Assembly: GCA_963920765.1 (NCBI GenBank)
Contig: OY987250.1
Coordinates: 7,068,001 to 7,132,000, forward strand
Source of the DNA: Ulota crispa
Taxonomy: Eukaryota; Streptophyta; Bryopsida; Orthotrichales; Orthotrichaceae
Direction: 5' to 3'
DNA length: 64,000 nt
Made by a program: the position numbers and the translations under genes
Notes under the pieces: model-generated
Told to the model about the DNA's origin: nothing
Databases searched by the model: none
The model's input: only the letters and a program-made list of their open reading frames with translations
Shown here: positions 6,387-18,740 of the stretch, in pieces
Numbering within the stretch: the stretch's first letter is position 1
Layout: the number at the start of each line of letters is the position of its first letter

Positions 6387-9300
6387 ATGTCACTCTGGGA
6401 AGACATGTCCCAGTGCATTTCGAAGCCAATCTGCCCCCCCCGAGGAAGTGCAAGAGTGGAGTGTAATCCCGTCTGCTTTACTTAAATGAATGGTTTTCTG
6501 CGAGCACAGAGTATTTATTCAACACAAGCCCTCGCGGAAAGTTACAAGGGAAGTATTACGGCGCATAATGTCCAAACCAAGCGCTTGGAACCCGAGATAT
6601 CGTCTCCTCCACGTTGAGCAAGAGAATACTCACCGCAGTGCGACATTCTGGAAGCCCACCACCTGATTCTTATACCCCAACGTACAAATTGCATTCACAA
6701 AATCTTGTGAGTCCCATCAAGAAATTACATTAGTGCTCCTGCAGTCTGCCTACCAAAACTGTACCCAGCAATGCTATACAAATCTCTCATCCAGGTTTCA
6801 CCTTCACTTCTTCATTATCGACTTCATTGACTCGCACTGCTGAACAACCAAAATCACACTACGCCATATCCTTCGCCATCTTCTCAGCCTTCTGTGACAC
6901 CTCTTCAACGCCACCGACCATATAGAACGCCTGCTCAGGCAAATCGTCGTACTTCCCATCCAACACACCCTGCACCAAACATACAAAACATCCACAAATA
7001 TAGTTATGACTTGGACTTCACATTGCATATCCCCTTCAGGAACACAACAAGCTTCCCAAAAGCTTCAAACTGCAAAGCTCACTTCATCAAGGTCTACTCA
7101 AGGAGGGTGCCCAAACATAATCCATCGAATGAAACCACAACAATCACCACTACACAACTAAACCTCACAACACCAAAAAATTGAAATTGTGTTTCCAAAG
7201 CACCCACGACGCTCTCACCAGAAAGAAACAAAGAACCCTCGCGAACCTCAGACACCACCCCACAACACACCAGCAGTCCAGCGCCGACAACACTCACCCG
7301 GAATCCTGACACGCTGTCCTTCAGGTCCACGTACTTCCCCGGCGACCCCGTGAACACCTCCGCCACGTGGAACGGCTGGCTCAGAAACCTCTGCATCTTG
7401 CGAGCGCGCGCCACCGTCAGCTTGTCGTCCTCGCTCAGCTCGTCCATCCCCAGAATGGCGATGATGTCCTGCAGGTTCTTGTAGTTCTGCAGCACCTTCT
7501 GCACGTCGCGCGCGCAGTAGTAGTGCTCCTCCCCCAGAATGCGCGGCGACAGCATCCGCGACGTCGAGTCCAGCGGGTCCACCGCCGGGTAGATCCCCAG
7601 CTCCGAGATCTGCCGCGACAGCACCGTCGTCGCGTCCAAGTGCGCGAACGTCGTCGCCGGTGCCGGGTCCGTCAGGTCGTCCGCCGGCACGTAGATGGCC
7701 TGCACCGACGTGATGGACCCCTTCTGCGTCGTCGTGATCCGCTCCTGCAGCCCGCCCAAGTCCGTCGCCAGCGTCGGCTGGTACCCCACCGCCGACGGGA
7801 TGCGCCCCAGCAGCGCCGACACCTCCGAGTTCGCCTGCGTGAACCGGAATATGTTGTCGATGAAGAACAGCACGTCCTGCCCCTCCGCGTCGCGGAAGTG
7901 CTCCGCCACCGTCAGCCCCGTCAGCCCCACCCGCGCCCGCGCGCCCGGCGGCTCGTTCATCTGCCCGTACACCAGCGCGCACTTGCTCTCCATCTGCGCC
8001 CATCCCCACCCCCAAAACACCACCTCAGCGCCCTCCTCCCATGCACACACACCATCACCCCCACCACCCCTCACCACTGTCACCAGTCACCGCCACGCGT
8101 GCGGCCACCCACCTGCTTGTCGCCCAGCTTGATGACGCCGCTCTCGATCATCTCCTTGTACAGATCGTTCCCCTCGCGCGTGCGCTCCCCCACTCCCGCG
8201 AACACGGAGAACCCGCCGTGCGCCTTGGCGATGTTGTTGATGAGCTCCATGATGAGCACCGTCTTGCCCACTCCCGCGCCCCCGAACAGCCCGATCTTGC
8301 CCCCTCGCTGATACGGCGCCAGCAGGTCCACCACCTTGATGCCCGTCTCCAGGATCTCCATCTCCGTCCCCTGCTCCACGAACGACGGCGCCTCCCGATG
8401 GATTCCCAGCACGTGCTCCCTGCCTGCCACACCCCACCCATCGCCACACCCTCCTCAGCACCCAGCTTTCCACCAGCCGCTGCACATCTGGGCACGGAGT
8501 AGTTCCATCCCAAATAGGAGGAAAAAGGAAGAGCTGTCACTGATGATACAAAGTAACTCCACTCATCGAGTGTTCACTTACTGATATCGCCTCTCTCGTC
8601 GATGGCTTCACCGATGACGTTGATGATGCGACCCAATGTCGCCCGCCCGACAGGGACCTGCACGATTACAGATTCAAATTTCCCTCTTCAGAACGACACT
8701 CACCCGGAGTAGCTAGTACATTCTCACAATTTCGTTTGTTGTTCCAGAATTCTTAGGTACCACAAATTGAATGCAGCTTATATGCCAATTTCGTCCAAAT
8801 AATTAGGTAATTTACTAAAGAATCAAATGATCGGAGCAGGAGATTCTGTCTCAGAGTAGTAATCTTATGGCCGACAAATTTGTATTGGAACAAGACGACA
8901 GGACACTTCAATGGGCATCTTTTGATTTGAATTTCAGTAAAAATAATGTTTTAGGGAAAGAGTACCCATATGCTGACGAAACCTAAAGTGACGGCGTGCT
9001 AACGAAATATAACATCATGCAGGACAGGGTACAATGTGTTCGTAAGGACTGCTGGATAAACGAAACAATTTCGTCATGCCACAACACATAAACCCGCGCA
9101 AACAGGAAATTATCGACATGACTAGTGATGATGCGTCATTGGCACAACGACAACCCCTAATACCAACGAAGTGTATCAAATAGAACTGTTCGATCCGCTG
9201 AGATTAGTCATGGGACACTCCATTCGCGGCTTAGTCCTCTGAATTCTGGGAAGCCCCGTTCCGAACAGCCACATTGCACCCTAAACAATCAGGTAAGCCT

Positions 9301-9840
9301 ATCTACCGCACCAAAATGACGTGTGCCCGGTGAAATTCCACAACATTCGACACACAAAAAGATCCTCACCAGAATGGGAGATCCAGTGTTCAGCACACGC
9401 TGCCCGCGAACAAGCCCGTCCGTCGTCTCCATGGCAATCGTCCGCACCGTGTTCTCCCCCAAATGCTGCGCCACTTCCAGCACAACCCTAAGGTTATGGT
9501 CCTGCACCTCCAGCGCGGTCAGAATGGGCGGCAACCCCTTCTCGAACTTCACATCCACCACGGCTCCGATCACGGTGGCGATGGAGCCCACGCTCCCGGC
9601 GCCCGTGAAGTCCGCCGATTTGTTGTCCGTGGACATCTCTCGCGACAGCAAGGGCGTTACAGCTCGCGCGTGGTGGAGCAGAGCTCGTGACGACAGCCCC
9701 TTGGCGGCCGCATTCGCGACGGTCCTCCCATTGGCATTGGACGAGAACGATCTGGTGGACGGCTTGGTCGCTTGCGACGCCGAGGCAAGCCTGCGGGAAC
9801 CCGCCCGCAGCGCTGCTGCCAACGCCTTGCGTCCCGACAT
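6387..9840 (-). repeat. Left arm of ~3.45-kb inverted repeat
   Basis: This arm is the reverse complement of 15287-18740. Paired positions always sum to 25127, so there is no net insertion or deletion over the whole arm, introns and 3' UTR included. Identity starts abruptly at 6387 (partner 18740) and beyond that the flanks are unrelated. At the other end, sequence upstream of the two start codons is also unrelated. Apart from a 39-bp patch in the presequence (9751-9789) I saw no difference in any stretch I compared. I did not align every base. Confidence 0.9.
6859..9840 (-). CDS. Mitochondrial ATP synthase subunit beta, copy 1 (5 exons)
   Basis: This is the catalytic beta subunit of the mitochondrial F1 ATP synthase, which makes ATP in the matrix. 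Exons on the minus strand: 9840-9370, 8657-8582, 8423-8113, 7993-7298 and 6969-6859. All junctions are GT..AG, giving 554 residues, the normal length for the family. An Arg/Ser/Ala-rich presequence precedes the mature protein. The P-loop GGAGVGKT is at residues 230-237, the Walker B Asp in LFFID at 332, the nucleotide-site Tyr in AVGYQ near 357, and the DELSEED loop reads DELSEDD at 470-476. Exon codons are strongly GC-ending against an AT-rich background. A possible poly(A) signal AATAAA lies at 6520-6515. It differs from copy 2 only in codons 18-30 as far as I compared. Exon 3 starts at the CAG acceptor that keeps the frame; the next AG does not. Confidence 0.95.
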
Positions 9841-18268: not shown

Positions 18269-18740
18269 TGTGATTTTGGTTGTTCAGCAGTGCGAGTCAA
18301 TGAAGTCGATAATGAAGAAGTGAAGGTGAAACCTGGATGAGAGATTTGTATAGCATTGCTGGGTACAGTTTTGGTAGGCAGACTGCAGGAGCACTAATGT
18401 AATTTCTTGATGGGACTCACAAGATTTTGTGAATGCAATTTGTACGTTGGGGTATAAGAATCAGGTGGTGGGCTTCCAGAATGTCGCACTGCGGTGAGTA
18501 TTCTCTTGCTCAACGTGGAGGAGACGATATCTCGGGTTCCAAGCGCTTGGTTTGGACATTATGCGCCGTAATACTTCCCTTGTAACTTTCCGCGAGGGCT
18601 TGTGTTGAATAAATACTCTGTGCTCGCAGAAAACCATTCATTTAAGTAAAGCAGACGGGATTACACTCCACTCTTGCACTTCCTCGGGGGGGGCAGATTG
18701 GCTTCGAAATGCACTGGGACATGTCTTCCCAGAGTGACAT
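15287..18740 (+). repeat. Right arm of ~3.45-kb inverted repeat
   Basis: Reverse-complement partner of 6387-9840. It covers the whole transcribed unit of copy 2, introns and 3' UTR, and ends abruptly about 470 bp past the stop codon. An 8-base G run near 18686-18693 matches an 8-base C run in the other arm, so even a slippage-prone homopolymer is the same length. Confidence 0.9.

Follow-up and report, generated by a model that had tools for sequence, protein, structure and literature searches.

The locus and its genes

The window considered here, the whole 64,000-bp stretch of DNA that was analysed (C9:7068001-7132000), belongs to the 274.8-Mb genome of the moss Ulota crispa and lies on a 19.1-Mb scaffold, C9, which is presumably chromosome 9. 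According to the available passages of the genome description, the assembly (cbUloCris4.1) was built with Hifiasm from HiFi reads of one haploid gametophyte at ~117-fold coverage (2.18 million reads, 21.28 Gb) and scaffolded with YaHS, reaching QV 60.9 with 742 gaps (PMC11803377); the mean read length calculated from those totals is ~9.8 kb and exceeds the length of the repeat arms described below. Two divergent genes are found in the window, each of them complete, with five exons and GT-AG introns, and each encoding a mitochondrial-type ATP synthase beta subunit of 554 amino acids within one arm of an inverted repeat (coordinates are those of the window):

6387..9843, minus strand: arm 1, ATP synthase beta copy 1 with its 3' flank (arm alignment)
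9370..9840, minus strand: copy 1 exon 1, start codon at 9838-9840
8582..8657, minus strand: copy 1 exon 2
8113..8423, minus strand: copy 1 exon 3
7298..7993, minus strand: copy 1 exon 4
6859..6969, minus strand: copy 1 exon 5, with the stop codon
15284..18740, plus strand: arm 2, ATP synthase beta copy 2 with its 3' flank (arm alignment)
15287..15757, plus strand: copy 2 exon 1
16470..16545, plus strand: copy 2 exon 2
16704..17014, plus strand: copy 2 exon 3
17134..17829, plus strand: copy 2 exon 4
18158..18268, plus strand: copy 2 exon 5, with the stop codon
18608..18613, plus strand: poly(A)-like signal (AATAAA) of copy 2, with a mirror counterpart in arm 1 (sequence reading)

At the protein level, three Pfam domains are recognized (ATP-synt_ab_N, ATP-synt_ab and the C-terminal domain), and the best solved relative is chain 6rd4_X (ATP synthase subunit beta, E 1e-255). 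Both the domains and the best relatives, which are F1 beta chains, identify the product as the beta subunit of the mitochondrial F1-ATPase. An N-terminal extension of ~80 residues remains outside the domain matches and constitutes a putative mitochondrial presequence, to which all seven residue differences between the proteins of copy 1 and copy 2 are confined.

Regarding the rest of the window, a Pfam search of six of its 31 stop-to-stop frames, all six located outside the arms, yielded no match. A 2-kb inverted repeat (27146-29175 / 57729-59802, 77% identical) is probably an old transposable element, and an element of ~100-270 bp at 2191-2461 has seven further matches in the window with 80-86% identity. 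Part of intron 1 (16144-16360) has an 80% copy at C7:9515225-9515437, probably a small repeat within the intron; this C7 match was rejected as a further beta gene because it corresponds to intron 1 and not to coding sequence.

The inverted repeat and its divergent island

When the arms are aligned base by base, 3,444 of 3,457 bases match (99.62%) with no indels, and the bases pair one-to-one with paired coordinates that sum to 25127. The initial repeat search, which extended over mismatches, had delimited the arms at 6376-9843 / 15284-18751. Outside both arm ends the flanking sequences are unrelated between arms. An earlier note on this DNA had described two complete five-exon genes facing away from each other in near-identical inverted arms of ~3.45 kb, with the same coordinate sum, no net indels, sharp boundaries and introns as identical as exons. 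The exon models, domains and relatives confirm the genes, and the alignment confirms the repeat, including its sharp outer edge (6387/18740) and an inner edge placed 3 bp upstream of the ATG. Its account of arms and genes stands, then, and is in need of three corrections, namely a divergent island, a gap in the spacer and a dispersed paralogue.

All 13 arm mismatches are concentrated in one stretch of 39 bp that covers codons 18-30 of the putative presequence (13/39 inside the island versus 0/3,418 in the rest of the arms):

9751..9789, minus strand: divergent island of copy 1, with 13/39 bases different from copy 2 (arm alignment)
15338..15376, plus strand: matching island of copy 2 (arm alignment)

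On one side of the island, 3,364 bp are identical between arms (6387-9750), and on the other 54 bp (9790-9843) that end 3 bp upstream of the ATG. All four introns and the 3' region are 100% identical; together with the equally identical exons 2-5, this lies above the >97% identity over consecutive exons and introns by which concerted pairs are recognized. The island itself contains seven amino-acid changes, and 6/13 of its mismatches are synonymous. For codons 18-32, dS between arm 1 and arm 2 is 0.82 (on only 12 synonymous sites) and dN is 0.25, and the coding sequence outside this block shows zero arm-arm differences. Upstream of both start codons, 1,000 bp displayed no mutual alignment (best 16 bp, E 0.29). 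The locus is in this manner a mosaic of homogenised arms, a divergent island and 5' flanks that cannot be aligned.

The spacer, the scaffold gap and a possible inversion

The sequence between the arms is interrupted by a scaffold gap that is abutted on both sides by the copies of a direct repeat:

10039..12556, no strand: left contig end, first copy of the overlap, identical to the right contig start
12557..12756, no strand: 200-N scaffold gap in the spacer
12757..15274, no strand: right contig start, second copy of the overlap, duplicate of 10039-12556 and taken as an artefact

YaHS writes gaps as 200 N. Because copies of 2,518 bp that are 100% identical (2,518/2,518 bases) abut the gap on both sides, two overlapping contigs were probably joined by the scaffolder and never merged; therefore, the true spacer would be of ~2,722 bp and not of 5.44 kb. 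That the spacer was truly duplicated in tandem was rejected, since both copies terminate precisely at the borders of the gap and are identical throughout, the pattern expected of an unmerged overlap. No full further copy of the 2,518-bp unit appears among the 97 genome matches listed, which derive from the best 40 of 4,415 candidates. Once the overlap is removed, the locus takes the form of a palindrome, with inverted arms >99% identical around a spacer of ~2.72 kb. Two dispersed repeats lie in this spacer: one at 10986-11700, with inverted ends of ~203 bp that are 81% alike and partial copies on at least C1-C5, C7-C10 and C56, and another at 11909-12249, with copies of 75-90% on at least C1, C3, C5, C7 and C10.

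The left contig breaks off 9 bp short of arm 2, and 195 bp separate arm 1 from the beginning of the right contig. Contig ends so near the inner arm edges, along with the 200-N gap and the duplicated overlap between the arms, would suit an artefact in which one gene was duplicated or collapsed by the assembler. Such an origin is nonetheless highly improbable, as the arms differ in the island, in both outer flanks and in both 5' flanks, and each contig has its own outer flank, arm and spacer. The data as described also argue against it, with ~117-fold HiFi, QV 60.9 and reads of ~9.8 kb from one haploid gametophyte (PMC11803377). Collapse of the arms from a single copy was rejected in particular, judging from their distinct flanks and island. 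The gap and the 2,518-bp overlap had been overlooked by the earlier note, which had considered collapse as an artefact; an assembly error is indeed present in the spacer, whereas collapse of the arms is unsupported.

At the reported gap number, 0.007 gaps would be expected in a stretch of 2,722 bp, and the contig break is for this reason probably linked to the inverted repeat, a connection reasoned post hoc. It is conceivable, albeit rather unlikely, that the spacer, with promoters and islands, inverts through crossing-over between the arms so frequently that both orientations were present in the sequenced gametophyte. An inversion of this kind would account for contigs that break off close to the inner edges of the arms, each carrying a copy of the spacer, despite 117-fold HiFi. 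If true, the locus would act as a flip-flop switch in the nucleus, built around a housekeeping pair and sustained by the recombination that homogenises the arms.

The dispersed paralogue and GC content

A third beta gene, dispersed, is located on scaffold C3 (L017, exons within 3939-7670). It has six exons, an additional intron splitting what is exon 4 in the arm genes, and its mature protein equals that of the arms except for one residue. Over the whole gene, dS between arm and C3 is 0.99-1.00, and the introns are 44-48% identical in a forced alignment, the true alignment being lost. A DNA search with 6387-9837 as the query revealed no coding match beyond the two arms and C3 among the best candidates scored; the count of three beta genes rests on this one search and is a lower bound. 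The 1,000-bp 5' flanks of the arms do not align to the C3 gene either. In codons 18-32, dN between arm and C3 is 0.37-0.39, with a dS of 1.17 for arm 1 and saturated for arm 2. Because C3 is not clearly closer to one arm than to the other in this block, import of the island from C3 was rejected and, on the basis of sequence comparison, this gene is probably not its donor.

The paralogue serves as the single control gene for the GC contrast. GC3 is 0.88 in the arms versus 0.66 in the C3 gene (Fisher P 1.5e-17). The rise is strongest in codons 201-480, where arm GC3 is 0.97 versus 0.79 outside (0.65 versus 0.68 in C3); in bins of 40 codons, the arms keep values of 0.92-1.00 across this stretch and C3 varies between 0.55 and 0.80 throughout. 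Among the synonymous differences of the mature part that exchange a strong for a weak base, the arm carries G/C at 145/168, and 33 further differences remain within class. In the introns, GC for arm and C3 is 0.423/0.403 (intron 1), 0.538/0.455 (intron 2), 0.681/0.530 (intron 3, the largest rise, mid-gene) and 0.451/0.377 (intron 4). The flanks of the arms, with GC of 0.31-0.33, are poorer than the arms, an excess that says little because the C3 gene also exceeds its flanks. Raised GC3 and intron GC have been used as support for conversion in mammalian gene pairs, with the caution from the same authors that neither homogeneity nor raised GC alone proves it (PMC2720389, passages available). Relative to one control paralogue, both marks of converted pairs are found in the moss arms, with intron 1 (only +0.02) and the 3' UTR (0.449 in the arm versus 0.430 in C3) hardly raised.

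This contrast could also be attributed to translational selection on a gene with high expression, an idea that competes with the GC-biased step of the conversion scenario and with no other part of it. It agrees with the housekeeping nature of the gene and with a rise that is greater in GC3 than in introns and hardly reaches intron 1 and the 3' UTR. However, with the same mature protein bar one residue, the C3 paralogue has a GC3 of just 0.66, and the arms exceed it in GC in each of the four introns too, so that we consider selection on translation a possible but doubtful cause.

A probable old pair, homogenised by proposed recent gene conversion

Taken as a whole, the locus is likely to represent an old head-to-head pair that has been homogenised very recently, and probably repeatedly, by GC-biased gene conversion. 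This reading is favoured because the island and the 5' flanks look old, the arms do not differ downstream of them, and arm GC is raised in the direction that GC-biased conversion predicts. From these features we infer that the pair is old, that conversion acted on it repeatedly and that GC bias lies behind the GC contrast. The mitochondrial ATP synthase beta pair would have arisen long ago, head-to-head and ~2.7 kb apart, and recombinational repair between the inverted arms would have copied one gene over the other. The latest event or events would have homogenised 3,364 bp, from codon 31 to ~130 bp past the AATAAA signal, as well as the 54 bp at the ATG, missing the 39-bp island in the putative presequence. 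The promoters would have stayed beyond the reach of conversion, their homology being already lost, and repeated rounds with GC-biased mismatch repair would have raised arm GC. The island and the 5' flanks appear to be of almost the same age as the divergence from C3, and the remainder of the arms looks new, although the divergence of the island, which rests on 39 bp and 12 synonymous sites, is somewhat below that between arm and C3. For the 54 bp of identity on the upstream side of the island, an additional tract or a patchy mode of repair would be required. Facile homologous recombination is supported by Physcomitrella (PMC4990234, in the portion available).

The time of the last homogenisation can be bounded from the zero differences observed over ~2,183 sites that are nearly neutral (1,317 in introns, 472 downstream and 394 synonymous), which by the rule of three place arm-arm divergence below ~0.0014. 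In Physcomitrella, a Ks of 0.85 is equated with ~45 million years in the part of the source available (PMC1952061); if this rate is assumed for Ulota, the arms would have last been homogenised, roughly, less than ~0.07 million years ago.

The earlier note had left the choice between a very recent duplication and continuing conversion. If the whole gene had been duplicated in inverted orientation very recently, without conversion, and the island had been acquired later through local mutation or the import of a short segment, the arms would equally have 3,418/3,418 identical bases outside the island, introns included. We regard this scenario as improbable. It requires 13 changes within 39 bp with the remainder of the arms unchanged, which has a probability of ~2e-23 under uniform scatter, and 6/13 of these changes are synonymous. 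No donor of the island was found among the best candidates of the DNA search, and neither arm is clearly nearer C3. In addition, homology would have to start 3 bp before the start codon, and a GC enrichment centred in the arms is not predicted. Of the two options of the earlier note, conversion of an old pair is the one favoured and recent duplication the less favoured.

Comparison with known systems

The earlier note had compared the locus with plastid-type and Y-chromosome palindromes. The plastid analogy fails and a plastid-type inverted repeat was rejected, since C9 is a nuclear scaffold, the introns are GT-AG and an intact rbcL resides on C157. On the same C157, two genes ~180 bp apart, which we take to be petD and rps11, leave no room between them for rpoA, a lack that presumably fits a moss plastid. 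Short rbcL fragments, several with stops, are present on C1, C2, C4, C5 and C7, probably as plastid DNA insertions, and a RuBisCO-like match in a long open frame at C97:118173-118940 is perhaps a bacterial contaminant.

Primate sex-chromosome palindromes have larger arms than the moss repeat. For human Y palindrome P6, conversion tracts average 2,068 bp (PMC3723533), and GC-biased conversion has been reported for palindromes, the arms of primate X palindromes being GC-richer than their flanks (PMC3723533, PMC8981503; all from the passages available). The moss repeat resembles them in its inverted arms >99% identical and in the GC-biased conversion that probably homogenises them. Unlike these sex-chromosome systems, it lies on C9, with arms of 3.46 kb and one housekeeping gene per arm. 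The Y analogy holds for the mechanism and not for the location, as Ulota crispa is described as monoicous and therefore no sex chromosome is expected (PMC11803377, passages available).

The available passages on mammalian pairs describe concerted mosaic evolution for BMP8A/B, DDX19A/B and TUBG1/2, BMP8A/B being inverted; raised GC3 is significant for DDX19A/B and TUBG1/2 and not for Bmp8a/b, and intron GC is raised (PMC2720389). Like them, the moss locus has two copies with >97% identity over consecutive exons and intron, a mosaic structure and raised GC. It differs in spacing, with arms ~2.7 kb apart versus 13 to 235 kb, and in that the mammalian pairs were compared across mammals and the moss pair is described from one species alone.

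Closer to mosses, the parts available report head-to-head GSIIB pairs that are 90% identical in Chlamydomonas reinhardtii and 95% in Volvox carteri, with conversion as one explanation, and moss glutamine synthetase copies that are 98% identical yet non-adjacent (PMC2978018). Likewise nuclear, metabolic and arranged head-to-head in members of the green lineage, the GSIIB genes are, unlike the moss beta pair, algal and less identical, and the passages available contain no island or GC evidence for them. For Physcomitrella, tandemly arrayed genes are described as highly similar, with conversion suggested (Lang et al. 2008, cited in PMC3045890, in the passage available); these share with the present pair that they are moss nuclear genes, adjacent and near-identical, for which conversion is proposed. 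Among titles and abstract openings on ATP synthase beta with inverted repeats, conversion or head-to-head arrangement, no such pair was mentioned, and the passages of PMC12845241 contain no moss gene-conversion case.

Gene pairs homogenised by conversion are already known, and a moss nuclear housekeeping pair probably joins them. The locus also draws attention to a spacer that the assembly contains in duplicate. It has the appearance of a clean natural example in which inverted copies of a nuclear housekeeping gene undergo GC-biased conversion in a haploid-dominant plant, with the island as an internal clock and the dispersed paralogue as a control, and both conversion and spacer inversion are directly testable here from existing public reads.
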